DNA from: Stenotrophomonas maltophilia R551-3
GTDB taxonomy: Bacteria; Pseudomonadota; Gammaproteobacteria; Xanthomonadales; Xanthomonadaceae
Assembly: GCF_000020665.1 (NCBI RefSeq)
Contig: NC_011071.1
Location: 2,780,501-2,844,500 of the forward strand
Length of the DNA stretch: 64,000 bases
Direction of reading: 5' to 3'
The notes beneath the pieces are model-generated. The model was not told where the DNA came from. It saw nothing but the letters and a program-made list of their open reading frames with translations, and did no database searches. Below, piece by piece: positions 764 through 58,602 of the stretch; position 1 is the first letter of the stretch; each line of letters begins with the position of its first letter. Both the position numbers and the translations under genes were made by a program.

Positions 764-2017
764 CTAGTTGGGCTGGAACCCCCAAGCCCTGACGCGACTG
801 AACGGCATTCCGGTGAGCGACTTGCACTCGCCCGGCAGCGGTGTGTCCGAGCGCGCAGACTTGACAATGCCATAACCGGTGTTCTGGAAGAACATTGCAG
901 CACCGCTGTCGCCACCACCACAGGCGAGCGAACTTCCCTCTACCTTGAACCAGACCTCATCGCATTGCATAGACTCGGTGGGCCCACAAATATTTCCAGG
1001 ACTATGCGCAACCGACGTGACTATTCCACAGCTGTATCCGCTACGCGAACCACGGAAGCAGATGGTACCGTCTTTCGCTGGAACATTGTAAACGTTCGAA
1101 ATAAAGCGCGTGGACACTGTTGACGACGCGTACGCCTCCAACAAAGGAATGTGTGGAGATGGAATTCGATGCCATTGCACATCGGTTTGCGCATCGTTCC
1201 TCTGATCTTGGAATATCAAAGGGAACGTAACCAAAGTCCCGTTCTGGCTACTTCCATAGTTGCCGTAGATGACGTCGTCGGGGCAATGCGCCGCCGTTAT
1301 GATTCCCTTTAGACCTGTAGCCGTGTGCTTCACCGTAAATCCCGTGGTGCAGTATGAATTGTTTGACTGCAGCACGGCTCCGCCGATTGCATATATGGAA
1401 TTGCTTTCAGGAACGTCCGACGTCTTGAAACGGAGCTTTACGCCATAGGCACGTTCGAGCTTGGACAGAATTCCCATATACTTCCGGGCGTCCTGTTCAT
1501 CCCCACGTATTCTGACCTCGGCCTCGTTATCTCCGGCATATCCGGTCAATCCAACGAAACCCGGGATAGCTGACTGTGCTGCCAGCCGAATTTCCTTCAG
1601 TTGCCTGGTGAACTCCTCCTCGGTGAAGAGGTGCCCAGAAGAGAACTCGACACGTGCTTTACCAGCCGCCGTCGTCCATTGCCGCCCTGCAACAGAACCA
1701 TCTCCCTTGAGCTTCACCGAAACATGAAAGTCAGGCGACTGCTCGATGCTGATTTCCGTCAAGCGCCCGGCATACTCTCGGCGAATGTCCTGGATGCTGG
1801 GCGCCACTTCCGCCTCCAGCTGAATCCGCCTGATTGCCTCATCAACTGATAGAGACTTGACTCTGGAAAGGAGGGAGCTGACTGCAACCGCAGTCTCCTC
1901 ATCCAGCCCCTTCAGTTTCTCACTTTCGGACACATTCTTCTGTGCAAGTACAGTGGTGGGCACAACACTCCCTAAGATGAGTCCGAGCACACTCACGTAA
2001 ATATCGCCTGTTTTCAC
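764..2017 (-). CDS. secreted chymotrypsin-like (S1 family) serine protease with N-terminal propeptide
   Basis: The 417-residue product starts with a signal peptide (about residues 1-26, ending near 'TTVLAQ'). About 180 residues of probable propeptide follow, then a C-terminal trypsin-fold domain. The catalytic triad is visible: H244 in 'TAAHC', D279 in 'AQTDVQW' and S371 in 'CGGGDSGAA'. Several paired cysteines fit an exported, disulfide-bonded enzyme. The long prodomain before an S1 domain recalls alpha-lytic protease and streptogrisins, also from this bacterial family. The gene stands alone on the candidate island and its G+C is lower than that of the host genes, suggesting acquisition. Natural substrate unknown; it could be a nutritional or competitive exoprotease. 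Confidence 0.85.
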   Translation of the reverse strand: MKTGDIYVSVLGLILGSVVPTTVLAQKNVSESEKLKGLDEETAVAVSSLLSRVKSLSVDEAIRRIQLEAEVAPSIQDIRREYAGRLTEISIEQSPDFHVSVKLKGDGSVAGRQWTTAAGKARVEFSSGHLFTEEEFTRQLKEIRLAAQSAIPGFVGLTGYAGDNEAEVRIRGDEQDARKYMGILSKLERAYGVKLRFKTSDVPESNSIYAIGGAVLQSNNSYCTTGFTVKHTATGLKGIITAAHCPDDVIYGNYGSSQNGTLVTFPLIFQDQRNDAQTDVQWHRIPSPHIPLLEAYASSTVSTRFISNVYNVPAKDGTICFRGSRSGYSCGIVTSVAHSPGNICGPTESMQCDEVWFKVEGSSLACGGGDSGAAMFFQNTGYGIVKSARSDTPLPGECKSLTGMPFSRVRAWGFQPN

Positions 2018-2378
2018 TTAGCCTCCTCCAATGAATGCTGTAGGAATCTTGCGCAGCCTGTTGCAGACTGAGCATGAGTGTACGACGTGATTACGATTGC
2101 TATTGCGTAGAGTGTTCCATTTTTAACCGTCGACCTGTTGTCAGGGAGCCGCTGGCCCGGGATACGCTCGATGGAACCCACCGAGGATCGTGGCCCCGAA
2201 TTTAACGTCCTGCGCACTCCCTCTGTCGCCTGTCAGCCAGCACGCCTGGCCGCATGCGTGCTCTACGCGACTGCAGCCCTTCTGCCTCTGGAACCAAGTA
2301 GCTGGATTGATCATCTGCCGAGCGGTAAGGCGAGAAAAACAAAAAAGCCCCTGTTTCCAGGGGCTCTTCTGAACATCT
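2018..2378. other. intergenic region upstream of the protease gene
   Basis: No convincing gene is visible. The A+T-rich part just upstream of 2017 presumably carries the protease promoter. The rest ends in the minus-strand terminator and att copy described separately. Short open frames here lack coding character. Confidence 0.5.
2335..2365 (-). terminator. intrinsic terminator beside attL
   Basis: A perfect 8-bp stem AGCCCCTG/CAGGGGCT (2346-2353 with 2358-2365, loop TTTC) is followed on the minus strand by a run of T residues. It lies 13 bases from the tRNA-end copy at 2379 and resembles the hairpins at 609 and 44802. Confidence 0.75.
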
Positions 2379-2392
2379 TGGCGGAGAGAGTG
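2379..2392 (-). repeat. attL core of the prophage (tRNA-Ser 3' end copy)
   Basis: The 14 bases TGGCGGAGAGAGTG are identical to 44835-44848, the CCA end of the intact tRNA-Ser gene. Integrase starts about 150 bases away. The two copies define a 42.5-kb element. Confidence 0.85.
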
Positions 2393-2538
2393 TCTGAATC
2401 TAGGGAGTTCCCTAGCTTTCGTGCGCCTCCGTGAAACCAGTCTCAACCCTTGCGCCAGCTACGTTTCACCATCCGGTCTGGTTCGTGCGCCTTCGCGGGA
2501 ATCCGTGCTTGCTGGGCGGGTACATGGATGGGTAGGGA
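2393..2538. promoter_or_regulatory. integrase leader with putative arm-type sites
   Basis: This stretch between the att core and int contains a near-palindrome CTAGGGA-GT-TCCCTAG (2400-2415) and an imperfect direct repeat TTCGTGCGCCTCCG / TTCGTGCGCCTTCG, whose copies start near 2418 and 2482. Repeats in this position are typical of integrase arm-binding sites and the int promoter. No binding data are available, so the role is inferred. Confidence 0.4.
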
Positions 2539-3732
2539 ATGGGATTGAAGATCAATCGCCTGACGGCGAGACGAGTAGCGACGATCACCGAGCCAGGCTA
2601 CCACCCGGACGGTGGCGGTCTATACCTCCAGGTGACCGCTTCCTGCGCCAAGAGCTGGGTGTTCAGGTATCGATTTGAAGGGAAGCGCCCGGAAATGGGC
2701 TTGGGCCCGCTACACGTGATCGGCTTGGCCGAGGCGCGGGAGGCGGCAGGAGCCGCGAGGAAGATGGTGCAGTCCGGTCAGGATCCGCTCGCGGGCAGGA
2801 GAGCTGCGGCCGTCGCCACGGCCAGCATCCCAACGTTCTGGGAAGCCGCAACCGCATACATCGCTGAGCGCGAAGCAGGATGGACCAATCCGAAGCATGC
2901 CGGCCAGTGGACCAGGACGCTGGAGACCTATGCAAAACCGGTGCTTGGGGACCTACGGGTGGACCGCATCGAGACCGAGCATGTCTTGGCCGTGCTGCGG
3001 CCAATCTGGACCACCAAAACGGAGACCGCTAGCCGAGTTCGGCAACGAATGGAGGCCGTGCTTGATGCCGTGACCGTGCAGAAGAAGCGCAGCGGGGAGA
3101 ATCCCGCGCGATGGCGCGGGCACTTGGCGGTGATCTTGCCGAAACCCACCGCGGTGACCAAGGTGGAGAACTTCGCCGCCCTCCCCTATGCCGAGCTCCC
3201 TTCTTTCATGGCTGCCCTGCGGTCAAGGCACGGGGAAGCTGCGCGCGCCCTCGAGTTCACGATCCTCACAGCAGCACGAACGGGAATGACGTTGGGAGCT
3301 ACGCCAGGGGAGGTCGATCTTGCCGCCGGCACGTGGACCGTACCAGGTAGCCGGATGAAGGCCAAGGTAGAGCACACGGTTCCGCTTTCTACGCCTGCGC
3401 TGGCGCTCGCGCGGCCACGCATTAAGCGGGACCTCCTCTTCCCCAATGACCTCAGCAATGAGCCTCTCAGCGAAAACGCCATGCTCGCCCTACTAAAACG
3501 TATGGGCTATGGCTACATTACGGTTCATGGGTTCCGGTCGACCTTCAAAGACTGGGCCAGCGAGATGACTGACTACCCAGACGACCTTTCCGAGGCAGCG
3601 CTGGCCCACAGGATACGCGACAAAGCAAAAGCCGCCTACAAGCGGGGAACCATGATACAAAAGCGTAGAGAATTAATGAACAGCTGGGCAGAATACTGCG
3701 CACAAGAACCATTCAAAGCGCGGTCATCCTAG
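2539..3732 (+). CDS. int: phage tyrosine recombinase (P4-type integrase)
   Basis: The 397-residue protein has an N-terminal arm-binding DUF4102-like domain ('HPDGGGLYLQV'), a central SAM-like core-binding part, and a C-terminal catalytic domain. Visible catalytic residues are R247 in 'TAARTGM', H330 and R333 in 'VHGFRSTF', H357 in 'ALAHRI' and nucleophile Y367 in 'KAAYKRG'. Length and layout match P4-like integrases that use tRNA 3' ends. It is adjacent to the attL core. Its stop codon overlaps the stop of the convergent gene at 3729. In the circular phage it lies downstream of the alpA-like gene on the same strand. Confidence 0.95.
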   Translation: MGLKINRLTARRVATITEPGYHPDGGGLYLQVTASCAKSWVFRYRFEGKRPEMGLGPLHVIGLAEAREAAGAARKMVQSGQDPLAGRRAAAVATASIPTFWEAATAYIAEREAGWTNPKHAGQWTRTLETYAKPVLGDLRVDRIETEHVLAVLRPIWTTKTETASRVRQRMEAVLDAVTVQKKRSGENPARWRGHLAVILPKPTAVTKVENFAALPYAELPSFMAALRSRHGEAARALEFTILTAARTGMTLGATPGEVDLAAGTWTVPGSRMKAKVEHTVPLSTPALALARPRIKRDLLFPNDLSNEPLSENAMLALLKRMGYGYITVHGFRSTFKDWASEMTDYPDDLSEAALAHRIRDKAKAAYKRGTMIQKRRELMNSWAEYCAQEPFKARSS

Positions 3733-4370
3733 ATTTCCGGCTCCCACACGATAGATACCGCAAAGTGCTTCACCCGGTAATCCCGCCCACTGCGATAGTG
3801 CTTTTGGGTGGACGAAAAGGAAGATGCGGGCGGCGCGCTAGGAACGATGGCAACCTCCGCACCGTTACGCTTTGACTTTCTCGCAACCAGCTGCTTAGAC
3901 CATTCCCGCATAACGTCGGGAGCATTGCCCTTTTTAAAATAAATAAGCAACCCGCCCCGATCTTGCCCCTCCTCCCCCGTGGCATACCGTGTAGTAAGCT
4001 GCAGATAGCCTTTGGCAAGCCACTTGTAACCAGTGTATATCTTGGCTTCAGCTAGCCACATGTAACGATCCCCGTAGCGAACCACTAGGTCGCAATGACC
4101 GCCAACAGTTGCATCCAAAGCTGCTTCAAACGCCATCTGCCTCAAGGATTTGACAAACTGATAAGTCAATCCATTCTCATCCAGACCTGCAAGCTCCTTC
4201 GGATTTTCCGACAACTGCGCGGCAGACCAACTTACGGCTCGCTCCACCAGATCGGAAAAGTTAGCATAAGTATGATTTCCAACGAACCTCAATCGATCCC
4301 AATCCATCATAATTAAGACTTGAGGATGAGAATCATGAAGGCGCCGAAAGTCAGCCTCAGTCATTTCCAT
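3729..4370 (-). CDS. PD-(D/E)XK nuclease-like protein, third gene of low-GC cassette
   Basis: The 213-residue protein contains a PD-(D/E)XK-type core: D94 in 'GHCDLVVRYG', then E108 and K110 in 'WLAEAKIY', with E82 as a possible extra acidic ligand. This arrangement is typical of restriction-like nucleases that need Mg2+. The rest is not recognised. It is the last of three minus-strand genes; its start overlaps the end of the middle gene by 10 bases, so the cassette is probably one transcript. Base composition is close to half G+C, well below the phage and host. Position between int and the tail genes is a common site for defence or cargo genes. A nuclease effector is inferred, not shown. Confidence 0.6.
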   Translation of the reverse strand: MEMTEADFRRLHDSHPQVLIMMDWDRLRFVGNHTYANFSDLVERAVSWSAAQLSENPKELAGLDENGLTYQFVKSLRQMAFEAALDATVGGHCDLVVRYGDRYMWLAEAKIYTGYKWLAKGYLQLTTRYATGEEGQDRGGLLIYFKKGNAPDVMREWSKQLVARKSKRNGAEVAIVPSAPPASSFSSTQKHYRSGRDYRVKHFAVSIVWEPEI

Positions 4371-4786
4371 TTCGGTGAAGCCTTCGCCTCTAAAAGCATA
4401 TTCGACGCTGAGAAATAAGGGATCAAATGCTCCTCAACATCATGGACAACCGATCCATCTGAAAGAACAATTTCGCGAGACGTATATGCCTCGCGAACAA
4501 CATCATCGTCTATTTTTCTAGCCTCGCCGTCGTAGTCCTTAAGAAGGTAATGCTTGACGAAAAGAGCTTTGCGACCACCTCGCAATAGGCGATGAATAGC
4601 CAGTGCGAAATACGGATCTCCTGGATCGGTCCTAGCCGCTTTAGCCAACGAGCTATAAGTGAGCATCCGGAGATTCTCCGAGCGCTGACTTTCCGCATAG
4701 TCCAATATCCGCACGCAAATAAACGATACCTGAGAGCCCTCTAGACCCTTAAGTAGATCGTTTCTAATTTTGCGCAGTTCGACCAT
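4361..4786 (-). CDS. hypothetical protein, middle gene of low-GC cassette
   Basis: The 141-residue protein is not recognised. It is mostly helical, with a basic N-terminus ('MVELRKIRNDLLKGLEG') and a central stretch that could form a winged helix ('YFALAIHRLLRGGRKALF'). It starts one base after the stop of the first gene and overlaps the third by 10 bases, which indicates translational coupling and perhaps a complex. Small middle components of this size occur in multi-gene defence systems, but no specific family could be assigned. Confidence 0.6.
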   Translation of the reverse strand: MVELRKIRNDLLKGLEGSQVSFICVRILDYAESQRSENLRMLTYSSLAKAARTDPGDPYFALAIHRLLRGGRKALFVKHYLLKDYDGEARKIDDDVVREAYTSREIVLSDGSVVHDVEEHLIPYFSASNMLLEAKASPKWK

Positions 4787-4787
4787 G

Positions 4788-5825
4788 TTAGGCAGGATTG
4801 CTTTCCAATATGTGCGACAACCGCCGACGCAACCTTTTCAGATCCCTGACGATTATACCCGAGCCAAAGTAAGCATCATGTAAAGAAGGATTTATAGAGT
4901 GAGCCTCATACACAGACGAGTGCAAGGTGAACTCTGGCTCCCACTCCATATCCCCGTCTTTTTCCAGCCAACGAATCAAAATACTGAAAGGATGGATAAT
5001 ACCATCCACCGCCCCCTTACCACCCACGTGGAACGGCTCCTCCCTGAGACAGGTGAGCTTCATATGCTCGTGCTTGACGGAACCCGTGTCCGTCAAGAAC
5101 CCCAATTCCACGACAGTACCCCATTGCGAATCGTACGCCGCCTGAATAGCACCAAAAAGATTAATAGGCTCCGGATAATAACCAATTCCATCCATTAATG
5201 TCTTTCGGATCTTTGCATGGGCTGCGGAAATAAACTCCGGGGGCACTCCCTTAGGACTGTCGGCTATCGAGAAAACTATATTACCCGCAAGGGGAATCCA
5301 CAGAATGTCGAACAATTGACGCTCAATGATTTTGCTACCGTAAACCGCAGAAAAGCCAGCCAGCGCCGCCGGAAGCTCACCCAGCGCAGCCAGATCCAGC
5401 CGCTCCTTTATTTCGAACTTGCGAATGCTCGAGTAAACGAGAAATATTCCATCATCGTCGTTGTATTTCTCACACAACACCGACTCATCGTTGCCGAGCC
5501 GGGCACCGTCTACGGCTTTACAGGGGAACGCCAAAGAGAATGGAGACTCTGGAACCTCAATCTCACTCGCGAATGAACGCAGCTCAGCCAGATTCTCGTC
5601 CGGGATTTGATACAGCCTTAGAGCCTTGTCACCTACAAGCACATGTTCAGCAAGGCCGGACGCTAATGCATCTGCGGATTCCTGCATAACATCAGCGCCC
5701 GCATAGCGTGAAATGGTCCTGGGCCATCCTTTGCCTGCTTTCAATCCGGCGCGAACGATAATTTTCCGAGCCTCGGTCCACTGCGCGCGCTCTTTTAGCG
5801 CTTCCAAAATACCTGAGATTTCCAT
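4788..5825 (-). CDS. hypothetical protein, first gene of low-GC cassette
   Basis: The start at 5825 ('MEISGILEAL', 345 residues) is preferred over 5852 because a GGGGGTG ribosome-binding site lies just upstream. No catalytic motif, signal peptide or membrane segment is seen; the protein is a mix of helices and strands. Low G+C and codon use separate the cassette from its surroundings. It is coupled to the two downstream genes, the last of which looks like a nuclease. A sensor or scaffold role is possible but speculative. Confidence 0.6.
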   Translation of the reverse strand: MEISGILEALKERAQWTEARKIIVRAGLKAGKGWPRTISRYAGADVMQESADALASGLAEHVLVGDKALRLYQIPDENLAELRSFASEIEVPESPFSLAFPCKAVDGARLGNDESVLCEKYNDDDGIFLVYSSIRKFEIKERLDLAALGELPAALAGFSAVYGSKIIERQLFDILWIPLAGNIVFSIADSPKGVPPEFISAAHAKIRKTLMDGIGYYPEPINLFGAIQAAYDSQWGTVVELGFLTDTGSVKHEHMKLTCLREEPFHVGGKGAVDGIIHPFSILIRWLEKDGDMEWEPEFTLHSSVYEAHSINPSLHDAYFGSGIIVRDLKRLRRRLSHILESNPA

Positions 5826-6218
5826 ATCACCCCCTGAACAACAGGTGATCATGTCTTCGCTCAGCCAGCTTAGTCAATGGTTGAGCTCTCATCTCACTCC
5901 CTGTGAGAATTGCCAGCATGGGCCGAGAAACCTGACCGATGCTGTGTTCAGACTCGAGTAGAGCACCCAGGACGCAGCTGCGCATCATGTGCTTAGCGCA
6001 CCGAGCGCGCCCTCCTTGGCGCGTTCGGCACATGAGCGAACTAAAGCCCGCCGCCCGCCCATGTCCTCACCTCTGCACTTGTGCCCGGTGGGCAATCCAG
6101 ATCAGCCGCTCGGACACGGCCAGCGCCGAGACCTCAATCAGGCTGCTGGCCACATGCGGCACCGCCGGGCCTCGGCCGCCCCGACCTTACCACTGGCGGA
6201 GAAAGCGGCTAGAACGGA
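5826..6218. other. intergenic region upstream of the cassette
   Basis: No convincing gene. A 68-codon minus-strand frame (5827-6033) ends inside the ribosome-binding site of the cassette's first gene and could be a leader peptide, but it lacks supporting features. The cassette promoter presumably lies here. Composition shifts from low to high G+C across the region, marking the cassette edge. Confidence 0.4.
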
Positions 6219-44769: not shown

Positions 44770-44801
44770 GCGGGCGGGTAGCTAAGGCTGTAGAAGCGAA
44801 A

Positions 44802-44823
44802 AAGCCCCTATTTCTAGGAGCTT
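44802..44823 (-). terminator. terminator downstream of tRNA-Ser
   Basis: AAGCCCCTA/TAGGAGCTT (one mismatch, loop TTTC) has T-rich flanks on both strands, so it can stop tRNA-Ser transcription on minus and alpA transcription on plus. It is the phage-borne counterpart of the hairpins at 609 and 2346. Confidence 0.75.
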
Positions 44824-44834: not shown

Positions 44835-44924
44835 TGGCGGAGAGAGTGGGATTCGAACCCACGGAAGGTTTAACCCTTCGCCGGTTTTCAAGACCGGTGC
44901 CTTAAACCGCTCGGCCATCTCTCC
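44835..44924 (-). tRNA. tRNA-Ser(UGA), integration target (attR side)
   Basis: The 90-base gene starts GGAGAGATGGCCGAGCGG on the minus strand and ends with encoded CCA. The acceptor stem GGAGAGA pairs with TCTCTCC; the anticodon arm is CCGGT-CTTGAAA-ACCGG, giving anticodon TGA; a long variable arm and 'GGTTCGAATCC' T-arm follow. The last 14 bases repeat at 2379-2392. The prophage restores the 3' end so the tRNA stays functional. Confidence 0.95.
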
Positions 44925-45047: not shown

Positions 45048-46118
45048 ATGGCCCACCTCGATCTGGCCAACCTGCGCACCACCCTGCTGGACGACACCCA
45101 GCTGGCCGCAGTGGCCCTGCACCGCACTTTCGCCGGGCACCTGCCGGTCAGCAGTGGGCATCTGGTGGTCTGCGATCCGCTGGTCCAGGCCGAGGCGCCC
45201 GCGCTGGCCGACTACACCGCCCCGCTGGGCCGGCATCCGGTCGAGATCATCGTGCACAGCGGCCGCCCGGCGCTGGCCGTGGTCCGGTTCAAGCCCCGCG
45301 AAGACCTCACTGCGTCTGCCCTGCACTGGCAGATGGCGCGCTGGACCACGCAGGACCTGACCGGCCTGGATGAGGACAGTTTCATTGGCTATCCGGTCGA
45401 CGCCGGCATCGGCTGCTTCATGGACACCGACACCCAGCAGGCGCTGCTGGCCTTGATTGAACAGGCCGGTGGCGACGAAGACAACGCGTGGTCGGATGCG
45501 CTGATCGACCATGACGGCCTGGATGACGGCGCCGAATACCGCCCCTGGGGCGAGGACTCACCACACGGCCTGGTCGTGTTCACCAGCGGCTGGGGCGACG
45601 GCGTCTATCCGAGCTACTGGGCGCTGGATACCTCCGGCATTCCGGTCGCTCTGGTCACCGATTTCCTGTGCATCCAGGGCGGTGATGGGCGCGACGAGCG
45701 CGAGATCGCCGACCAGGCCTATCGCGACAGCCTCCCACCCGAAGAAGCTGAAGCGCTGGCACGGCTTGTAGCGGCCGTGGACCGCGACGACCCGGATGCG
45801 CTGCGAGAGCTGTTGAAGGATGCGCCGCAGCGCGCCAACCAGATCGAGCCGGGCTGTGGCGGCACCGCCCTGTTCGAGGCGATCCGCCTGGACCGCCCAC
45901 AGGCACTGCGGGCGCTGCTGCAGGGCGGCGCGTTGCCGGCAATGCCCGAGCGCCTGCACATGAGCAAGGTGACCAGCTACATGGACTACGCCCGGTTCCT
46001 GAAGAAGCCACGCAGCGCGGAACTGATGGCGGTGCTGGAAGCGCCAGTCATTGCCGAGCCCAGACCAGCCGCACCGCCGCGGCGCAGCTTCTGGGATCGG
46101 CTGTTCGGCAGGAAGTGA
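45048..46118 (+). CDS. DUF4241 and ankyrin-like repeat protein
   Basis: The 356-residue protein has a DUF4241-type region (about 60-225, 'GVYPSYWALDTSGIPVALVTDF'), then an ankyrin-like helical tail ('ALARLVAAVDRDDPDALREL', 'TALFEAIRLDRPQALRALLQ'). It ends in a basic segment 'RRSFWDRLFGRK'. DUF4241 proteins can be immunity-like or regulatory; no function is shown. It is the first host gene after the tRNA and is followed by a SMAG element. Confidence 0.75.
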   Translation: MAHLDLANLRTTLLDDTQLAAVALHRTFAGHLPVSSGHLVVCDPLVQAEAPALADYTAPLGRHPVEIIVHSGRPALAVVRFKPREDLTASALHWQMARWTTQDLTGLDEDSFIGYPVDAGIGCFMDTDTQQALLALIEQAGGDEDNAWSDALIDHDGLDDGAEYRPWGEDSPHGLVVFTSGWGDGVYPSYWALDTSGIPVALVTDFLCIQGGDGRDEREIADQAYRDSLPPEEAEALARLVAAVDRDDPDALRELLKDAPQRANQIEPGCGGTALFEAIRLDRPQALRALLQGGALPAMPERLHMSKVTSYMDYARFLKKPRSAELMAVLEAPVIAEPRPAAPPRRSFWDRLFGRK

Positions 46119-46138
46119 CCGGGGCCGGAAAGCAGCAA

Positions 46139-46161
46139 CGCCGGGCATGGCCCGGCGCTAC
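46139..46161 (-). repeat. SMAG palindrome
   Basis: The stem CGCCGGGC-ATG-GCCCGGCG is followed by CTAC, the complement of GTAG. It lies 21 bases after the DUF4241-gene stop and may stabilise its mRNA end. Confidence 0.88.
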
Positions 46162-46199
46162 TGTTTCACAGATCGGCGGTGCAGTCGCGGGTAGGCGCC

Positions 46200-47192
46200 T
46201 CAGCCCGCATCCACTGCCAACGCGCCCAGCGCACTGGCCTTGATCCGCTCCTTGGCCTTTTCACAGGCGCCACCGCAATCCAGGCGCGAGGCCTCCAGCT
46301 GCGGCGGCAAGTGCTCGGCCAGGAAGTCGATGAACACGCGCACCGCCGGCAGCAGGCCGCGGCGCGAGGCGAACACGGCATGGCACACACCCTGCGGCAG
46401 CGACCAGTCCGGCAGCACCACTTCCAGTTCGCCGTTGCGCACCGCATCGGCGCACACGGTTTCCGGCAGCATGGTGATGCCGAAACCGTCCTTCACCATG
46501 CTCTGCAGCAGCGGGAAGTCGAAACCGGCCACGCGCGGCTGCAGGTCGACCCGGCGCACTTCGCCTTCCGGGCCGTGCAGCTCCCAGCGCTGGCGGGCTT
46601 CGTCTTCGCTGATGCTGAGGGTGACGTGCTGGGTCAGCTCTTCCGGATCCTTCGGCCGGCCAGCGCGATCCAGGTACTTCGGGCTGGCCACCAGCAGTTC
46701 CTGCACTTGGCCGAAGCTGCGCATCACCAGGCTGCCATCGTCGTCCAGGCGCGAACGCACGCGCAGGGCCACGTCGTAGCCTTCATTGATGATGTCCACG
46801 CGGCGGTTGCTGATGTTCAGCTGCAGCCGCACCTTCGGGTACTGCTCAAGGAACTTGGGCAGCAGCTTGGGCAGCTGCATCTGCGCCAGCGATACCGGCA
46901 CGCTGGCACGCACCAGGCCGCGCGGTTCCGCACTGAGGCGGTCCACCACTTCGCGTGCGGCCTGTGCCTCGGCCAGCATCGTCTGCGCGTGACGATGCAC
47001 GCTGGTGCCGACGTCGGTCACCGCAAAACGGCGCGTGGAGCGCTGCAGCAGGCGCACGCCCAGGTCGGTTTCCAGCTGGCTGATGCGGCGGCTCAGGCGC
47101 GACTTGGGGATACCCAGAGCGCGTTCGGCGGCAGCGAATCCACCGTGGTCGACCACCATCGCAAAGTAGTACAGGTCATTCAGGTCATGCAT
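46200..47192 (-). CDS. LysR-type transcriptional regulator
   Basis: The 330-residue protein has the LysR N-terminal winged HTH ('FAAAERALGIPKSRLSRRISQLETDLGVRLL'). A co-inducer domain (about 90-300, 'VRASVPVSLAQMQLPKLLPKFL') follows, and a C-terminal extension of about 25 residues ('CGGACEKAKERIKA') longer than usual. It is divergent from azoR across 127 bases that hold a LysR-type palindrome, so it most likely regulates azoR and itself. Confidence 0.92.
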   Translation of the reverse strand: MHDLNDLYYFAMVVDHGGFAAAERALGIPKSRLSRRISQLETDLGVRLLQRSTRRFAVTDVGTSVHRHAQTMLAEAQAAREVVDRLSAEPRGLVRASVPVSLAQMQLPKLLPKFLEQYPKVRLQLNISNRRVDIINEGYDVALRVRSRLDDDGSLVMRSFGQVQELLVASPKYLDRAGRPKDPEELTQHVTLSISEDEARQRWELHGPEGEVRRVDLQPRVAGFDFPLLQSMVKDGFGITMLPETVCADAVRNGELEVVLPDWSLPQGVCHAVFASRRGLLPAVRVFIDFLAEHLPPQLEASRLDCGGACEKAKERIKASALGALAVDAG

Positions 47193-47198
47193 GCCCGA

Positions 47199-47214
47199 GT
47201 TCCATATCTAGAAC
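47199..47214. promoter_or_regulatory. putative LysR-regulator binding site
   Basis: GTTC-CATATCTA-GAAC is an interrupted palindrome with the T-N11-A form expected of LysR operators. It lies seven bases upstream of the lysR start in the divergent region. Confidence 0.55.
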
Positions 47215-47319
47215 AATACGTGGCATTCAACCACCTTTATCCCGCCTTTGCAACAACCTATCGTTCTCTCCGTCGGCGGGGCCTACCCGCCCCTTCCTCC
47301 CAGAACATAGGTGACTGCC

Positions 47320-47907
47320 ATGAAGCTTCTGCATCTCGACGCCAGCGTGCTTGGCGAGAACTCCGTCTCCCGCCACCTGACCGCCGCCGTGGTGGCCCGG
47401 TTCAAGCAGCAGGTTGAAGGCCTGCAGGTTGATTATCGCGATCTTGACGCCAATCCGGTACCGCATCTGCGCAGTGGTTCGCTGGCCAAGACCGACGCGG
47501 CCGAAGCTGCCGAGGCTGAACAGGTGCTCGAGCAGTTCCTGGCGGCTGACATCGTGGTGATCGGTGCGCCGATGTACAACTTCAGCATCCCCTCCACCCT
47601 GAAGGCCTGGATCGACCGCGTCGCCGTGGCCGGCCGCACGTTCAAGTACACCGAGAACGGCCCGGTGGGCCTGGCCGGTGGCAAGCGGGTGATCGTGGTC
47701 AGCAGCCGTGGCGGCATCTATACCGATTCGCCGGCCGACTTCCAGGAACCCTTCCTGCGCCAGACGTTCGCCTTCTGGGGCATCAACGACATCGAGTTCG
47801 TGCGTGCGGAGGGCATTGCCTACTCGCCGCAGCACCGCGAAGACGCCATTGCCGGCGCACTGGCCGCGCTGCCGTCTCACGAAGCGGCTGAAGCCGCCGC
47901 GGCGTAA
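47320..47907 (+). CDS. azoR: FMN-dependent NADH-azoreductase
   Basis: The 195-residue flavodoxin-like protein starts at ATG 47320 with 'MKLLHLDASVLGENSVSRHL'. The FMN loop 'GAPMYNFSIPSTLKAWIDRV' and 'VVSSRGGIY' are typical of AzoR. It reduces quinones and azo bonds with NAD(P)H in the cytosol. Divergent LysR gene and downstream terminator indicate a single-gene transcript. Confidence 0.93.
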   Translation: MKLLHLDASVLGENSVSRHLTAAVVARFKQQVEGLQVDYRDLDANPVPHLRSGSLAKTDAAEAAEAEQVLEQFLAADIVVIGAPMYNFSIPSTLKAWIDRVAVAGRTFKYTENGPVGLAGGKRVIVVSSRGGIYTDSPADFQEPFLRQTFAFWGINDIEFVRAEGIAYSPQHREDAIAGALAALPSHEAAEAAAA

Positions 47908-47960
47908 CGCGTTCCAGCGTTCGGCGCCGCTCTCTCTCCTCGTCGAGGCGCTGAACGCGG

Positions 47961-48023
47961 GCCGGGATCCCCTCCCCCATCCCGGCCCACCCTGGCGGCC
48001 CCGCTTAGCGGGGCCGTCTTTTT
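47961..48023 (+). terminator. double hairpin terminator after azoR
   Basis: A GCCGGGAT/ATCCCGGC hairpin (47961-47986) is followed by a perfect 9-bp CGGCCCCGC/GCGGGGCCG stem (47996-48016) and TCTTTTT. The second is a strong intrinsic terminator. Confidence 0.9.
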
Positions 48024-48040
48024 GCGTGCCGATTCTTGTC

Positions 48041-48120
48041 CGCCGGGCATGGCCCGGCGCAACCCGTGCAGGTGCCGGCATGGTCCGGCCGGCTCCGGTA
48101 GCGCCGGGCCATGCCCGGCG
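48041..48120. repeat. pair of SMAG palindromes facing each other
   Basis: The left stem CGCCGGGCATGGCCCGGCG (48041-48059) faces GTAG plus the mirror stem (48098-48120). The left element's CTAC is degenerate (CAAC). Paired elements like this are frequent for SMAG sequences. Confidence 0.85.
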
Positions 48121-48138
48121 GAAGCGGTACAGTGGTTC

Positions 48139-48495
48139 ATGAACTACATCGTGACCACTGCACATCGCAGCGAATTTCCGCACCCGATCACACTGCGCCG
48201 AGGCCAGGCACTGGTGGTGGGCGAACGTTATGAAGGCCCCGAGGGCTGGGAAGACTGGTTCCTGTGCGAAGCCGAGGGCCAGCAGCCCGGATTCGTGCCG
48301 GCGCCGGTGATCGGCCGCGATGCGCAGGGTGGCGCATTTGCCACGGAAGACTACTGCGCGCGGGAACTGGATGTGGATCCCGGGCAGCTGCTGCGCGGGC
48401 AACGCACGCTCAATGGCTGGGCGTGGTGCGCGCCGGAGACGGGCGAACCCGGATGGGTGCCGTTGGAGAAGCTGCGGGCTGCAGAAACCCCGTAG
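48139..48495 (+). CDS. SH3-like domain protein
   Basis: The 118-residue protein from ATG 48139 begins 'MNYIVTTAHRSEFPHPITLR' and has two SH3-like units ('GWEDWFLCEAEGQQPGFVP', 'GWAWCAPETGEPGWVPLEKL'). It resembles bacterial variant SH3 domain proteins of unknown role. Its stop codon TAG is part of a SMAG GTAG. Confidence 0.78.
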   Translation: MNYIVTTAHRSEFPHPITLRRGQALVVGERYEGPEGWEDWFLCEAEGQQPGFVPAPVIGRDAQGGAFATEDYCARELDVDPGQLLRGQRTLNGWAWCAPETGEPGWVPLEKLRAAETP

Positions 48496-48517
48496 CGCCC
48501 GAGCCTGCGCTCGGGCG
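48492..48517 (+). repeat. SMAG-like palindrome overlapping a stop codon
   Basis: GTAG at 48492-48495 supplies the TAG stop of the SH3-like gene, followed by the stem CGCCCGAG/CTCGGGCG (48496-48517). Confidence 0.8.
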
Positions 48518-48537
48518 GCAGCACAAAGCGCAGGCTA

Positions 48538-49860
<1,323 letters not shown>

Positions 49861-49931
49861 TTATACGGATTTCTGCCGCCCGGTTCATTCCCGCCGTGGC
49901 AGAATCGGGCTATTCCGTACTGGTCCGGTCC

Positions 49932-50570
49932 ATGTCTGCACCCCGCTCGTCGTCCGCCAAGTCGTTCACTGTGCATATCCCGCGCAACGCCCTGAAGATC
50001 GCCGGCATCGCCTTCGGCGTGGGCGTGCTGCTGTTCGTGCTGGTCTGGCTGACCGGCCGTGACAAGGAGTTCTTCCGCGCCGACCCGGCAGCACAGACCC
50101 CGCAGGAAACCGCCCAGGTGGAGCCCCTGCCGGAACCGTTGGCCGCTGCGGCCGGTTCCAGCGACATGCCAGACGCCAAGCCGGCACCGGTGGAGGAAGA
50201 AGCGCCGAAACTGGTCGAAACCGCTCCGCCACCGCCCGCGCCGATCGCCGAGCCGGCCCCGGCCGCCCCGGGCGCAGCGCCGGCCGCGACCGGCAACAGC
50301 CAGCCGATGCCGATTGCCGGCCAGTCGCCGCCGCCGTCCTATCCCGCCGCGGCACTGCGCGCCGGTGAAACCGGTACGGTGGTGGTACGCGTGGATGTGG
50401 ATGCCACCGGCTACCCGAACAACACCACGCTGATCCAGCGCAGTGGTTCACGCGAGCTCGACCGTGCCGCCACCGACGCCGTGCGGCGCTGGCGCTTCAC
50501 TCCGGCACAGAGCAACGGCCAGGCCGTGCCCGGCAGCATTGAAGTGCCGTTCGACTTCAAGACGCAGTAA
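49932..50570 (+). CDS. TonB-family energy transducer
   Basis: The 212-residue protein has an N-terminal membrane segment ('ALKIAGIAFGVGVLLFVLVW'), a Pro/Ala/Glu-rich periplasmic linker (about 55-125) and a TonB C-terminal domain ('YPAAALRAGETGTVVVRVDV', 'LDRAATDAVRRWRFTPA'). Such proteins couple the proton motive force to outer-membrane receptors, although this may be a paralogue without ExbBD nearby. A related gene follows 119 bases on. Confidence 0.87.
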   Translation: MSAPRSSSAKSFTVHIPRNALKIAGIAFGVGVLLFVLVWLTGRDKEFFRADPAAQTPQETAQVEPLPEPLAAAAGSSDMPDAKPAPVEEEAPKLVETAPPPPAPIAEPAPAAPGAAPAATGNSQPMPIAGQSPPPSYPAAALRAGETGTVVVRVDVDATGYPNNTTLIQRSGSRELDRAATDAVRRWRFTPAQSNGQAVPGSIEVPFDFKTQ

Positions 50571-50689
50571 CTGAACGCTTTCCGGCAGGCAAACTGAACC
50601 CTGCCGGTGGCGTTGACGCAACGCTGACACTCCTCGTCCGTGGCTCGGGCAACACTTCCCACGTCGTCAAGTGACGGAAGGAGTTTGCG

Positions 50690-51262
50690 ATGACTGCCAC
50701 CACCCACGAGAACCTCCACTCGCCGCATCTGCCGCAGGATTCCAGCGCGCAGCACACGCCCACGTCGCCCTGGATGTGGATCGCGCTGATCGTGGCGATG
50801 TTTGCTGCCGCCCTGCTCTGGTTGCGTTACTCCAACCAGGAAGATGTGGCGCCGGCACCGGTCGGTGAGCGCATGTTGCCGGCCCCTGAGCAGGCTGCGG
50901 CGATCGATGCAGCGGCACCTGCAACGCGCCAGGCCGCCCCGGCCTCAAGCCAGCGCAAGGCTGCGCCAGTGGTGCGTAATCGTGAAGCACGCCCGCTGGC
51001 CAGCAACCGCATGCCCACCTACCCCGCTGCCGCACTGCGCAGTGGCGTACAGGGCAGCGTGATCGCCAGCCTGAATGTCGACACCCGCGGCAATGTCGCC
51101 AACGCTGCGATCGTTTCGCGCAGCGGCGAGCGCAGCCGTGACCTGGATCGTGCGGTACTCAACACCGTGCAGAACTGGAAGTTCCAGCCGGCAATGCATG
51201 AAGGCCGTGCAGTAGCAAGCGTGGTGCGGGTTCCGGTGGATTTCCGTACCGAGCAGCGTTGA
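50690..51262 (+). CDS. second TonB-like protein
   Basis: The 190-residue protein has a membrane segment ('WMWIALIVAMFAAALLWL'), a shorter Ala/Pro/Gln linker and a TonB C-terminal domain ('YPAAALRSGVQGSVIASLNVD', 'LDRAVLNTVQNWKFQPAMHE'). It is a tandem paralogue of the upstream protein. A strong terminator follows, so the two genes may share a transcript. Confidence 0.85.
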   Translation: MTATTHENLHSPHLPQDSSAQHTPTSPWMWIALIVAMFAAALLWLRYSNQEDVAPAPVGERMLPAPEQAAAIDAAAPATRQAAPASSQRKAAPVVRNREARPLASNRMPTYPAAALRSGVQGSVIASLNVDTRGNVANAAIVSRSGERSRDLDRAVLNTVQNWKFQPAMHEGRAVASVVRVPVDFRTEQR

Positions 51263-51289
51263 TCGCGGACGAGGGGTTCGTGATGTTTC

Positions 51290-51316
51290 GACGGAGGCTT
51301 CGGCCTCCGTCCTTTT
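51290..51316 (+). terminator. intrinsic terminator after the TonB-like pair
   Basis: GACGGAGGC-TTCG-GCCTCCGTC, a perfect 9-bp stem with a UUCG-type loop, is followed by CCTTTT. Confidence 0.92.
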
Positions 51317-51328
51317 ATGCGGAGAAGC

Positions 51329-51466
51329 GTGCCGACCAAGGTCGGCACCTACCGGGCGATGTGAGCGTGCCGACCAAGGTTGGCACCTACCGGGCGATGT
51401 GAGCGTGCCAACCAGGGTTGGCACCTACCGGGCGATGGAAGCATGCCGACCAAGGTCGGCAGCTAC
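51329..51466 (-). repeat. array of four SMAG-like palindromes with 38-bp period
   Basis: Units start at 51329, 51367, 51405 and 51443. Each has a stem of about 9 bp around AAGG/AGGG followed by CTAC. The third has both arms changed together (CCAACC with GGTTGG), the second one arm only. The spacing of exactly 38 bases points to tandem duplication. Confidence 0.9.
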
Positions 51467-51480
51467 CAGGGCGCGCCATC

Positions 51481-51541
51481 CGCCGGGCATGGCCCGGCGC
51501 TACCCATGCGTTGTCCCGGTAGCGCCGGGCCATGCCCGGCG
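51481..51541. repeat. facing SMAG pair before aroA
   Basis: CGCCGGGC-type stem plus CTAC (51481-51503) and GTAG plus the mirror stem (51519-51541) lie just past the aroA stop. They may act as a bidirectional mRNA 3' end. Confidence 0.88.
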
Positions 51542-51554
51542 GATTCGGTGCCGC

Positions 51555-52862
51555 TCAGCCCAGATTGAACCCGGCGCCGCGCGCCAGACCATCGAAATCC
51601 GGGAAGGAAGTGGCGACGTTGGCGATGTCGTTGATGCGCACTTCGCCGTCACTTATCTGGCCGGCGATGGCGAAGGCCATGGCGATGCGATGGTCGCCGT
51701 GGCTTTCGATGGTGCCGCTGCCCAGGCGCACACCGCCGTGCAGGGTGGCGCCGTCTTCGGTTTCGTCCACCTGCATGCCCAGCGCACGCAGGCCGGTCGC
51801 CATCGCGGCAAGACGGTCCGATTCCTTCACTCGCAGTTCGGCGGCACCACTCACCACGGTCTGCCCTTCGGCGGCCGCAGCGGCCACGAACAGCGCAGGG
51901 AACTCGTCGATCATGTCCGGCACCAATTCCTCCGGAATGCGCGCGCCCTTCAGCGGCGCGTAGCGCACCACCAGGTCCGCCACCGGTTCACCGCCCTGCT
52001 CGGCCGGGTTCTCTTCGCTGATGTCCGCACCCATCAGGCGCAGCGCGTGCAGCAAACCGGTGCGACGCGGATTCAGGCCGACCTGCTTCAGGCGCAGTTC
52101 GGAGCCGGGAATGATGCTGGCAGCCACCAGATAGAACGCGGCCGAGGAGAAATCGGCGGGCACCACGATGTCGGTGGCACGCAGGCGCTGGCCGCCACGC
52201 AGCCGAGCCTTGCCCGGCGAGAATTCGATCTCCACCCCGAATGCAGAGAGCATGCGCTCGGTGTAGTCGCGGGTCGGGTGGGGTTCCACCACGCTGGTTT
52301 CGCCCTGCGCATACAGGCCGGCCAGCAGCACCGCCGACTTGATCTGCGCGCTGGCCACCGGCGAGGCGAAGTCGATGCCGTGCAGCGACTGGCCGCCATG
52401 CACGTGCAACGGCGGCGTGCCATCGCTTTCGGTGTCGATCTTCGCACCCATCTGCGACAGCGGGCCAGTGACGCGGCGCATCGGGCGACCTGACAGCGAC
52501 TCATCGCCGATCAGCGTGCAGTCGAACGCCTGGCCCGCCAGCAGGCCGGCCAACAGGCGCATGCCGGTACCGGCGTTGCCGCAGTCCAGCGGCGCATCCG
52601 GCGCCTTCAGGCCGTCGATGCCGACGCCGTGCACGATGCGCTGCGACGGGCTGGGGGTTTCGATGCGCACGCCCAGCTGGCCGAAGATGCGCGCAGTCGC
52701 GCGGGTGTCCTCGCCTTCCAGGAAGCCTTCGATATGCGAGGTGCCATCGGCCAGCGCGGCGAACATCACCGAGCGGTGCGAGACCGACTTGTCGCCGGGA
52801 ATGGTCAGGCTGCCCTGCAGCGGCTGGCCCTTGCGGGCAATCCAGTGTTGCGCGTTGCTCAT
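51555..52862 (-). CDS. aroA: 3-phosphoshikimate 1-carboxyvinyltransferase (EPSP synthase)
   Basis: The 435-residue protein from ATG 52862 has 'GDKSVSHRSVMFAALADG', 'LDCGNAGTGMRLLAGLLAG', 'GDESLSGRPMRRVT' and 'ESHGDHRIAMAFAIAG', all hallmark segments of EPSP synthase. It joins shikimate-3-phosphate and PEP in the shikimate pathway. It is the last gene of a serC-pheA-aroA minus-strand cluster, 76 bases after pheA. Confidence 0.97.
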   Translation of the reverse strand: MSNAQHWIARKGQPLQGSLTIPGDKSVSHRSVMFAALADGTSHIEGFLEGEDTRATARIFGQLGVRIETPSPSQRIVHGVGIDGLKAPDAPLDCGNAGTGMRLLAGLLAGQAFDCTLIGDESLSGRPMRRVTGPLSQMGAKIDTESDGTPPLHVHGGQSLHGIDFASPVASAQIKSAVLLAGLYAQGETSVVEPHPTRDYTERMLSAFGVEIEFSPGKARLRGGQRLRATDIVVPADFSSAAFYLVAASIIPGSELRLKQVGLNPRRTGLLHALRLMGADISEENPAEQGGEPVADLVVRYAPLKGARIPEELVPDMIDEFPALFVAAAAAEGQTVVSGAAELRVKESDRLAAMATGLRALGMQVDETEDGATLHGGVRLGSGTIESHGDHRIAMAFAIAGQISDGEVRINDIANVATSFPDFDGLARGAGFNLG

Positions 52863-52938
52863 CGTTCGATCATTCCGTAAACGCCGGCAGCACCGGCGAT
52901 GCATCAGGGGGCGGCAGCCGCAGCCACCGCAGCAGCAA

Positions 52939-54138
52939 TCAGGGCACGGCCACCGGATAGGAGCCGAGCACCTTGATCTGCGCCGAGTGCGCTTCCAGTT
53001 CGGCCAGCGCGGCCTGCATCGGCGCGTCGTCGATGTGGCCGGCCAGGTCGATGAAGAAGCCGTATTCCCACTTGCCGTGGTGCGACGGACGCGACTCGAT
53101 GCGGTTCATGCTGATGCCGTGGCGGGCGAACGGGCTGAGCACGTCGAACAGCGCACCGGGCTTGTCATGGATGAACACCAGCACCGAGGTGCGGTCATGG
53201 CCGGAGGTCGGGAAGATGTTGCGACCCACCACCAGGAAGCGGGTGGTGTTGTCGGCGTCGTTCTGGATCGGCTTGGTGACCACCTTCTTCAGGCCGTACA
53301 CATGGCCGGCACTCTCGCCACCGATGGCCGCTGCGTCGTCGGCGTTGCGCGCACGGCGCGCGCCTTCGGCATTGCTCGACACTGGAATCTTCTCGGCCTT
53401 CGGCAGGTTGGCGCGCAGCCACGCCGAGGTCTGCATGAACGACTGCGGGTGCGCATAGATGCGCTCGATGTCCTCGATGCGGCCGCTGCGCGACATCAGG
53501 TACTGCTGCACTCGCAGTTCCACTTCGCCACAGATCTTCAGGTTGGAGGTCAGGAACATGTCCAGGGTGATCTGGATGGTGCCCTGCCCGGAATTCTCCA
53601 CTGGCACCACGCCGAAATCGGCGTTGCCCGCTTCCACTTCCTGGAACACTTCTTCGATGCTGGCCATCGGCAGGCCCAGCGCCGAGCGGCCGAAGTGCTT
53701 GAGCACGGCCTGCTGGCTGAAGGTGCCTTCCGGGCCGAGGTAGCCGATCTTCAGCGGCTCCTGCTGGGCCAGGCAGGCCGACATGATCTCGCGGTAGACG
53801 TGCACCAGCAGCTCGTCGCTGAGCGGGCCTTCGTTGCGGTCCACCACCATGCGCAGCACCTGCGCTTCGCGCTCGGGCCGGTAGTAGTCGACGGCGGCGG
53901 CGAGCTTGCCCTTGGCCTTGCCGACCTGATGGGCAAAGCGTGCGCGCTCGGCGATCAGGTTCTGGATGTCGCGGTCGATCTGGTCGATCTTCGAGCGCAC
54001 ATCGGCCAGCGCCAGCGGCGCCAGGGTGGGCGCCGGATTCGAGGCGGCCTTGGCCTTGCTCTTCGCCTTGGTGGACGCGCTATCCTTGGCCGGTTCGGCC
54101 TTCTTCGGCGCCTTCTTGCTGGATTTGCTGCTTGCCAT
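52939..54138 (-). CDS. pheA: bifunctional chorismate mutase/prephenate dehydratase
   Basis: The 399-residue protein has a Lys/Ala-rich N-terminal tail of about 40 residues. Next is the chorismate mutase domain ('IDQIDRDIQNLIAERARFAH', to about 135), prephenate dehydratase ('GYLGPEGTFSQQAVLKHFG', 'VPVENSGQGTIQITLD', 'NTTRFLVVG') and a C-terminal ACT domain ('GALFDVLSPFARHGISMNRIESRPS') that binds phenylalanine. It makes phenylpyruvate. The charged tail is longer than usual. Confidence 0.97.
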   Translation of the reverse strand: MASSKSSKKAPKKAEPAKDSASTKAKSKAKAASNPAPTLAPLALADVRSKIDQIDRDIQNLIAERARFAHQVGKAKGKLAAAVDYYRPEREAQVLRMVVDRNEGPLSDELLVHVYREIMSACLAQQEPLKIGYLGPEGTFSQQAVLKHFGRSALGLPMASIEEVFQEVEAGNADFGVVPVENSGQGTIQITLDMFLTSNLKICGEVELRVQQYLMSRSGRIEDIERIYAHPQSFMQTSAWLRANLPKAEKIPVSSNAEGARRARNADDAAAIGGESAGHVYGLKKVVTKPIQNDADNTTRFLVVGRNIFPTSGHDRTSVLVFIHDKPGALFDVLSPFARHGISMNRIESRPSHHGKWEYGFFIDLAGHIDDAPMQAALAELEAHSAQIKVLGSYPVAVP

Positions 54139-54189
54139 CGGAGTTCCTTGTTACGGGGCCCGCACCCAACGGTGCGCGCCGTTCATTGC

Positions 54190-55275
54190 TCAGCCGTGAC
54201 GCTGCTGGAAATCGGCCATGAAGGCGACCAGCGCCTCGGCCCCGGCCAGCGGCATGGCGTTGTACAGCGAGGCGCGGATGCCGCCGACCACCTTGTGCCC
54301 CTTCAGCGCCAGCAGGCCAGCGGCCTTGGCTTCGGCGACGAAGCGTGCATCGAGCTCGGCATCAGGCAGGAAGAATGGGATGTTCATCCGCGAACGTGCC
54401 GCATGCGCGACCTCGTTGCGGTAGAAGCCACCGGAACCGTCGATGGCGCCGTACACCAGCGCAGCCTTGGCGGCATTGCGCTTGGCGAACTCGGCCACGC
54501 CGCCTTCGGCCAGCATCCACTTGAACACCAGGCCGGCCAGATACCAGTTCCAGGTGGGCGGGGTGTTGAGCATCGAATCGCGGGCAACGTGCGAGCGGTA
54601 ATCGAAGATGTCCGCACGCGGCTGGCCGCTGCGCTCGAGCAGGTCGAGGCGGATGATCATCACCGCGATGCCGACCGGGCCGAGGTTCTTCTGCGCGCCG
54701 GCGTAGATCACGCCATAGCGGCGTACGTCCAGCGGTTCGCTGGCGATGGACGAACTGAAGTCGGCGATCAGCGGGACGTTTCCGGTATCGGGCACATCAC
54801 GGAACTCGACACCGTGGATGGTCTCGTTGGCGGTGAGGTGCACGTAGGCGGCATCGGGCGACAGCTGCCAATCGGCACGCGCCGGCAGCTCGCGGTAGCC
54901 GTTGGCCTCGCTGCTGGCGGCGATGTTGACGTCGACGTAGACGCCTGCCTGCTTGACCGCGGTCTTGCCCCAGTGGCCACTGACCACGTAATCGGCACGC
55001 TGGCCCGGGGCGGCGAAGTTCAGCGGGATCAGCGCCTGCTGGGTGGTGGCGCCACCTGACAGGAACAGCACCGCATAGTCTTCGGGGATGTCGAGCAGGC
55101 GCCGCAGGTCGGCCTCGGCTTCGGCAGCCACGGACATGAATTCCGCGCCGCGATGGCTCATTTCGACGATGGAGGCACCGCTACCGTGCCAGTCCAGCAT
55201 TTCCGCCTGCGCCTGGCGCAGGACCGATTCCGGCAAGGTTGCAGGGCCGGCACTGAAGTTGAACGCGCGCGTCAT
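54190..55275 (-). CDS. serC: phosphoserine aminotransferase
   Basis: The 361-residue PLP enzyme starts '[19 protein letters not shown]' at 55275. The PLP-binding Lys is in '[12 protein letters not shown]', and '[14 protein letters not shown]'-like and '[10 protein letters not shown]' segments are typical. It makes phosphoserine for serine and pyridoxine synthesis. It begins the cluster with pheA and aroA, 51 bases before pheA. Confidence 0.97.
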
Positions 55276-55383
55276 GTCACACCTGTGGGGCAAGACCCCT
55301 AGTATGCCGCAGTGCACCAGCCTTGCGGCCTTGTGCGGCAAGGGAAATTTGGTTTCATTGGAATCCATTGGCGACGCGACCGG

Positions 55384-55453
55384 GTAGTGCCGGCCGCTGG
55401 CCGGCAACCCCAGGGATACGGGGCGGCGGCTGCCGGCCAGCGGCCGGCACTAC
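55384..55453. repeat. facing SMAG pair
   Basis: GTAG plus stem (55384-55406) and the mirror stem plus CTAC (55431-55453) have 9-bp arms TGCCGGCCG/CTGGCCGGCA-type. They lie between the FHA gene's stop and serC. Confidence 0.88.
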
Positions 55454-55455
55454 CG

Positions 55456-56262: not shown

Positions 56263-56387
56263 GCGGCGCAGCCTAGCAGGTTGGTCGCCCACGAAGAAGA
56301 ACCCACGATGAGCGCTTGGCGCGAAGGCCCTCGATGCGCACAATGCTCGCCCTCATTGATCATCCCCGCTTTGCGCCAGGAGCCTGC

Positions 56388-56663
56388 ATGTCCAACATCG
56401 ATGTCCGCCACGCCCACGCCCTGCCCGACGCACAGGCGCGCGCTGCGATCGAACAGGTTGCCGCCAAACTGTCCGAGCGCTTCGGCCTGAAGTCGTCCTG
56501 GTCCGCCGACGTACTGAACTTTTCCGGCAGCGGTGTGGACGGCGCGATCGAACTGCAGCCGGGCGCCGTGCGCGTGACCGCCAAGCTGGGCTTCCTGCTG
56601 TCGGCGATGAAAGGCATGGTCGAAGGCGAGATCCAGCGCGTGCTGAAGGAAAAGCTGGGCTGA
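56388..56663 (+). CDS. polyhydroxyalkanoic acid system family protein
   Basis: The 91-residue protein from ATG 56388 matches the small PHA_gran_rgn-type family: 'IDVRHAHALPDAQARAAIEQVAAKL', 'GVDGAIELQPGAVRVTAKLGFLLS'. These are linked to polyester granule biology by gene context. A phasin-like gene follows 80 bases on, which supports the assignment. Confidence 0.82.
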   Translation: MSNIDVRHAHALPDAQARAAIEQVAAKLSERFGLKSSWSADVLNFSGSGVDGAIELQPGAVRVTAKLGFLLSAMKGMVEGEIQRVLKEKLG

Positions 56664-56743
56664 ACCCCGGCGGTGACCGTCACGACCGTGCAACGCCATC
56701 ACGCGCTACTCTCGGGTCAGGCCCAACTCCCACGGGAAGTGCG

Positions 56744-57235: not shown

Positions 57236-57280
57236 CGGCAATTGTTGCAATGCAATAAAATTTGATCGACAATCGCGAGC

Positions 57281-58591: not shown

Positions 58592-58602
58592 ATGGCGCCT
58601 GC

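Follow-up and report, generated by a model that had tools for sequence, protein, structure and literature searches.

A candidate mobile anti-phage module of three coupled genes, with a putative PD-(D/E)XK nuclease, in a Stenotrophomonas maltophilia prophage

Introduction

Nucleases of the PD-(D/E)XK superfamily share a core layout in which an Asp and an ExK motif form the catalytic triad, together with a Glu in the first helix and a Gln further downstream. Among the described systems that come closest to the locus studied here, PDC-S54 is a phage-defence candidate of the PADLOC collection and consists of a single protein of about 410 model positions. The others are the Type ISP, Type I and MmeI-like restriction enzymes, the bacterial NACHT (NLR-like) defence proteins and, by the predicted fold of one protein, RdgC, the recombination-associated protein of E. 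coli, and the kinetochore proteins CENP-L/N (Iml3/Chl4). In the present work, we analysed three adjacent genes, A, B and C, of a prophage of S. maltophilia R551-3, located in a stretch of 64,000 nucleotides (NC_011071.1, positions 2,780,501 to 2,844,500) which is called the window and whose numbering is used throughout. Together, these genes probably constitute a candidate mobile module against phages, in which A is an exchangeable front end, B a small adaptor and C the nuclease effector.

Results

The A-B-C cassette

The cassette comprises the following features.

4788..5825, minus strand: gene A, putative front end or sensor; 345 amino acids; phrog_12777; predicted fold RdgC-like and, more weakly, CENP-L/N-like
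4361..4786, minus strand: gene B, putative adaptor; 141 amino acids; phrog_11490; family also found as the C-terminal tails of other proteins
3729..4370, minus strand: gene C, putative PD-(D/E)XK nuclease effector; 213 amino acids; E65, D94, E108, K110, Q124; phrog_9664
5830..5835, minus strand: Shine-Dalgarno-like AGGGGG for the start of gene A, read from the sequence

A first-pass annotation of this DNA had described three tightly coupled minus-strand genes of low G+C content. The coordinates of the open reading frames (ORFs) confirmed the coupling, with a gap of 1 base between A and B and an overlap of 10 bases between B and C. Gene A starts at the ATG at 5825, which is preceded by the AGGGGG; a longer alternative begins at the ATG at 5852. 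The G+C content of 3729-5825 is 50.3%, against 64.7% in the phage body (11255-40000) and 67.2% in the right-hand part of the window (46000-64000). Among 1239 sliding windows of this length, 8 show a G+C content as low as that or below it; the five with the lowest values begin at 3601-3901, over the cassette itself.

None of the three proteins matched a Pfam family at E-values up to 10, and neither a methyltransferase or helicase domain nor an NTPase family of that database was detected in them. In NCBIfam, C alone gave a match, at chance level (0.14). In PADLOC-DB 2.0.0 (5027 models, E up to 10), the sole match was that of C to PDC-S54 (0.041). The earlier statement that A and B match no family has to be narrowed: no Pfam, NCBIfam or PADLOC family covers them, but both match PHROG families, which are phage families without assigned function (best matches: A, phrog_12777, 2.4e-32; B, phrog_11490, 2.6e-8; for C, phrog_9664, 4.1e-41). 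Searches of the PDB with the sequences of C and A, and with profiles of C, A and B, returned nothing credible.

A-B-C recurs as a co-diverging unit

Protein searches yielded sets in A-B-C order in seven records: an Acinetobacter "phage", Calothrix, Pseudomonas and Vibrio plasmids, a Klebsiella phage record, a tailless Vibrio phage and Moraxella phage Mcat13. The neighbours are chromosome-like in the record labelled as Acinetobacter phage (L001), the Klebsiella phage record carries P2-like genes, and none of the three genes is annotated in Mcat13. In the PM2-like tailless Vibrio phage (Vinavirales; L007:1336-3626), the set takes up about 2.3 kb of 14.8 kb and adjoins the integrase. In L004, L005 and L007, A and B were initially recognised from their position and length, the identity being 14-22%. 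A tblastn search with A in phage records gave only two records of one Acinetobacter label, and a degenerate-peptide search for A in genome contigs gave nothing.

The seven records and the window (set A1) were the source of one fixed-spacing DNA pattern for W-x-[GA]-E-x-K-x10-G-x2-Q-L-x2-R-Y, which matched 111 stretches in viral contigs and at least 116 in genome contigs. These matches, the earlier loci and the window made up a set of 240 records, a few of which repeat one and the same place (L008, L010 and L011, from the window's own genome; L002 and L154). C was found by hidden Markov model in 239 of the 240 and the A-B-C order in 184. In 173 records, the sequence upstream of C exceeds 2000 bases, and a finer search found A in 153 of these. 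Across 129 A-B-C loci, the three proteins co-diverge (r 0.73-0.76; permutations, at most 0.09).

By record title, the hosts include alpha-, beta- and gammaproteobacteria and cyanobacteria, with single records, among the matches listed, of Draconibacterium (a metagenome-assembled genome) and Streptomyces; a mobilizable Klebsiella plasmid of 6.1 kb also carries A-B-C. In Rhodobacterales, C was found in 10 of 390 genomes, 6 of them with A-B-C. Phrog_9664 occurs in 1 of 274 genomes, the window's own, and phrog_12777 in 2 of 150 relatives, the own genome and G084. DNA nearly identical to the KP12 type was present in 6 of 5426 E. coli genomes, a search confined to such close forms. No metabolic or structural operon context was seen among the relatives looked at.

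The closest C found (L039) shares 82% amino acid identity with that of the window. For this pair, the nonsynonymous rate (dN) of C is 0.107, the synonymous rate (dS) being saturated and hence not computable; for B, dN is 0.27 and dS 2.28. As judged from this dN/dS comparison, B and C appear to be kept under purifying selection.

The nuclease signature of C

Residues D94, E108 and K110, which the first-pass annotation had assigned to a PD-(D/E)XK arrangement, were indeed found at these positions. D94 and G91 are invariant in an alignment of 100 members (A5) as well as in each of the 239 C domains, and E65 is a Glu wherever aligned (235 of 239, with a gap in the other 4). Because these columns are absent from the search pattern, their conservation is an independent test. 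E108, K110 and Q124 are invariant in the 239 domains but belong to the pattern; they are also invariant in the eight seeds found without it. The order and spacing of these residues fit the PD-(D/E)XK core, including the helix Glu and the downstream Gln, and C seems to be a nuclease of this superfamily, a putative assignment drawn from its sequence.

When 100 C proteins were compared with Pfam, single or paired members reached PDDEXK_9 (5.6e-4), HamA (0.019) and NERD (0.054), and unrelated families were reached alike (e.g. Chordopox_G2, 4.7e-4). PDC-S54 was matched by 29 of the 100, at best with 5.6e-10. A PDC-S54 protein (L268:816-2168; 4.9e-156) has a C-terminal part that is a distant relative of gene C and is found by the C model at 4.8e-7. 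The C protein of an element of the same genus (L012:10867-11688) ends in a long Lys/Ala repeat, possibly a nucleic-acid-binding tail.

B and C are joined to other front ends

A is missing in 20 of the 173 records with room upstream of C. In 7 of these 20, a large protein is found whose last 130 residues or so are B; that of L163 combines Mrr, a helicase, an N6-methylase and a Type ISP specificity domain, and its aligned identity to the remaining six is 44-68%. HsdR is the front end in three A-less records (L138, L212 and L213). Single cases with a B tail are the unassigned L134 protein, an EF-Tu complete in its three domains (L141), the N-acyl amino acid synthase FeeM (L202) and, probably, ribosomal protein S3 (L160). 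A Rhizobium plasmid encodes an MmeI-like methyltransferase with B, and C comes after it. C itself forms the C-terminal end of two NACHT-HEAT-like proteins, which are cyanobacterial (L158, L227), and of two pentapeptide proteins (L144, L237). Two further A-less records (L147, L233) contain just B and C. Pfam was run on L237 and on a third NACHT case with less upstream room (L206). L227 aligns with L206 along its whole length and L158 in its last 436 residues; L144 was classed by visual inspection.

Nine such proteins were scored with a model built from stand-alone B only, the E-values being those of this small search. FeeM, the ISP protein, EF-Tu, the L134 protein and the HsdR of L138 reached 65-77 bits (E 2e-25 to 2e-21), S3 18 bits (6e-7), and the HsdR of L212 and L213 12 bits (2e-5) and 5.7 bits (2e-3). 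With the last 150 residues only, the strong five gave 71-82 bits, S3 20.9, L212 17.8, L213 10.6 and the Type III Res protein of L267 4.6, the best of 1800 shuffled tails giving 6.9 bits. The S3 tail is probably B.

The genome of L141 contains two separate tuf genes, 87% identical to the fused EF-Tu, and that of L160 a separate rpsC, 61% identical to the tailed S3. Assembly errors were rejected as the origin of these fusions, as the copies are 87% and 61% identical to the separate genes of the same genomes. In Litoreibacter roseus (L141:2-6924), two genes of the same strand, one for an HD-domain protein and one for a GHKL (HATPase_c_3) protein, precede the EF-Tu-B fusion and C, and the four genes perhaps form one larger operon. 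In Nioella sp. (L160:743-1804), the spare S3 with its weakly B-like tail lies directly before C.

A tree was built from 156 of 202 C domains, after removal of near-duplicate A-B-C members. Front ends cluster on it, but the changes from A to non-A take 8 parsimony steps (at least 15 in shuffles). The C proteins that accompany EF-Tu, S3, FeeM and HsdR (L138) fall among A-B-C members, some nodes being weakly supported. Because B also tails other proteins before C, and C terminates NACHT-HEAT proteins, B-C looks like a fixed adaptor-nuclease unit, of which A would be one of several front ends.

The predicted fold of A

The structure predicted for A (mean predicted local distance difference test score 95.6) had RdgC as its best match, with a weaker one to CENP-L/N. 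At the sequence level, window A matched no Pfam family at E up to 10, and a profile of 94 A proteins retrieved five PDB sequences at E up to 10, RdgC not among them. A represents a phage-borne protein group, known as a PHROG family, that may share the fold of RdgC and of CENP-L/N.

The cassette occupies an exchangeable slot

The position of the cassette is defined by two further features.

2539..3732, plus strand: prophage tyrosine integrase, convergent with the A-B-C cassette
3655..6069, no strand: cargo slot, bounded by homology breaks against relatives with the same integrase (L310, L311)

The first-pass annotation had proposed a comparison of this position in related prophages for swapped modules, and other genes were found there. 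An integrase match at 1e-60 is present in 21 of 91 genomes of the genus, the own included, and A was absent beside the integrase in the five best other carriers; a search for A was negative in four genomes and located it elsewhere in G084. In G053 (L310), whose integrase is 91% identical, homology stops at window position 3654 and resumes at 6249; the slot holds a helix-turn-helix (HTH)/M78-peptidase protein (RmrA-like, 5.2e-11) and a DUF4411 protein. In G010 (L311), homology stops at 3641 and resumes at 6070, with two short genes after the integrase. In G084, A-B-C adjoins a different integrase.

In an E. coli P2-like prophage (A-B-C of this type at L275:6001-8222), the module lies between the replication endonuclease and the portal gene. 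The flank next to this slot occurs in 1112 of 5426 genomes, and all seven records opened, from 30 among the matches listed, carried other cargo. One (L303) is an AAA and HNH pair corresponding to Septu (PtuA 1.5e-124, PtuB 2.6e-83); the other six are PIN, phosphoribosyltransferase with DprA, TIR, KAP with AAA, DUF262 and DUF4145. Vassallo et al. describe this P2-like interval as a site of defence systems, which had earlier yielded tin and old (PMC9519451). In the genus of the window and in the E. coli P2-like slot, the cassette is therefore mobile and patchy, in a slot with exchangeable defence cargo. On viral contigs, 272 ORFs neighbour 92 A-B-C loci, and among the 141 compared with Pfam the commonest families were antitermination Q (22), portal (14) and integrase (10).

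A 20-base repeat with two mismatches is found at 2342-2361 and 44799-44818, the right copy just beyond a tRNA-Ser gene (44835-44924); the two copies could be the attachment sites. Left of the integrase, a 417-amino-acid ORF (764-2017) resembles, by eye, a secreted protease, and about half of it falls within window 1367-3654, a stretch 88% identical in L310.

Discussion

The candidate defence function put forward in the first-pass annotation is supported, by inference, by the nuclease signature, the recurrence of a co-diverging unit, its copies on phages and plasmids, the swapped cargo of the slot, and the presence of B and C on restriction and NACHT proteins. In the mechanism that we consider most likely, A, RdgC-like in fold, would bind DNA or DNA-bound phage products and in this way detect infection. 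B would dock C on A. Once assembled, the complex would allow C to cleave nucleic acid, probably DNA, belonging either to the phage or to the cell as a whole, which would provide protection. Front ends such as EF-Tu and S3 suggest that the event sensed can be the damage to, or the capture of, a host protein.

Several observations weigh against this proposal. The A-RdgC match has a root-mean-square deviation of 6.9-7.9 Å over 229-234 residues and no sequence support, window C has no Pfam match, and its PDB profile search was empty. Among the putative front ends, the large L134 protein matches no Pfam family, L147 and L233 are B-C pairs with no recognisable partner, and the Type III Res protein of L267 gave no B match (E 0.2). 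The L213 tail is a borderline case (10.6 or 8.6 bits, the best shuffle reaching 6.9 or 6.6), and the S3, L212 and L213 tails were called B only in the targeted search, not in the all-ORF search. Since C is so seldom present in the surveyed genomes, the module is rare: C was found in 1 of 385 Alphaproteobacteria genomes, the centre genome of that set itself, and, in the class of the window, in 5 of 369, of which two were strong matches, the own genome among these two. Finally, a DNA-binding protein and a nuclease could also serve the phage's own recombination or replication.

Other explanations have been weighed. A restriction-like action of the Type IV kind, in which A would read modified or foreign DNA directly and C cleave it with no infection signal, is a possible alternative. 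B-C is found together with restriction enzymes of the Type I, ISP and MmeI-like kinds, A-B-C has no methyltransferase gene, and A resembles, in its predicted structure, a DNA-binding protein; however, DNA sequence is not what the EF-Tu, S3, FeeM, NACHT and pentapeptide front ends read.

Plant immune receptors use an integrated-decoy principle, and by analogy B-C might be a general kill module to which bacteria attach an extra copy of a host protein targeted or recruited by phages, an idea that is tentative. Among the baits, A would then be the most frequent and would guard the DNA-recombination machinery of the host; the nuclease C would be freed when the bait is interfered with. EF-Tu-B and S3-B, beside separate normal genes, would be explicit baits, and their tails make this idea directly testable.

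It is rather unlikely that A-B-C serves its carrier element, as an RdgC-like DNA protein and a nuclease for recombination, replication or packaging. Close relatives of the carriers have other genes in the slot in place of A-B-C, the module is found on elements as unrelated as a PM2-like tailless phage and a 6.1-kb plasmid, and its B-C part occurs attached to restriction enzymes, its C part also to NACHT proteins, even if the best structural match of A is a recombination-associated protein and many viral-contig copies adjoin phage genes. An addiction module of the toxin-antitoxin type, with C as toxin and A or B as antidote, is very improbable, because the nuclease gene comes last in the operon and the fusion partners of B are large restriction enzymes, not small antidotes, although the operon is compact, coupled and carried by a small plasmid and phages, and an HTH/M78-peptidase and DUF4411 pair occupies the same slot in a relative.

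If the module with an exchangeable front end is real, one small adaptor domain would explain how one nuclease is plugged into detectors ranging from restriction enzymes to translation factors, and new sensors could be found as whatever carries a B tail before a C gene.

Comparison with known systems

The passages of the DefensePredictor paper considered here (PMC13092281) contain no such module, which could be among its unlabelled predictions. PDC-S54 differs from A-B-C in its other N-terminal part and in having neither A nor B, and window C covers model positions 297-337 only, at the E-value given above; its C-terminal part is related to C. The module of the window has none of the methyltransferase, helicase and specificity domains of the Type ISP, Type I and MmeI-like enzymes, some of which end in a B domain with a C gene right behind. 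Compared with the bacterial NACHT proteins, no NTPase family was matched in A, B or C, whereas C terminates the cyanobacterial NACHT-HEAT proteins. With RdgC and CENP-L/N, the resemblance lies in the predicted fold of A. Taken as a whole, A-B-C looks like an undescribed candidate anti-phage system.

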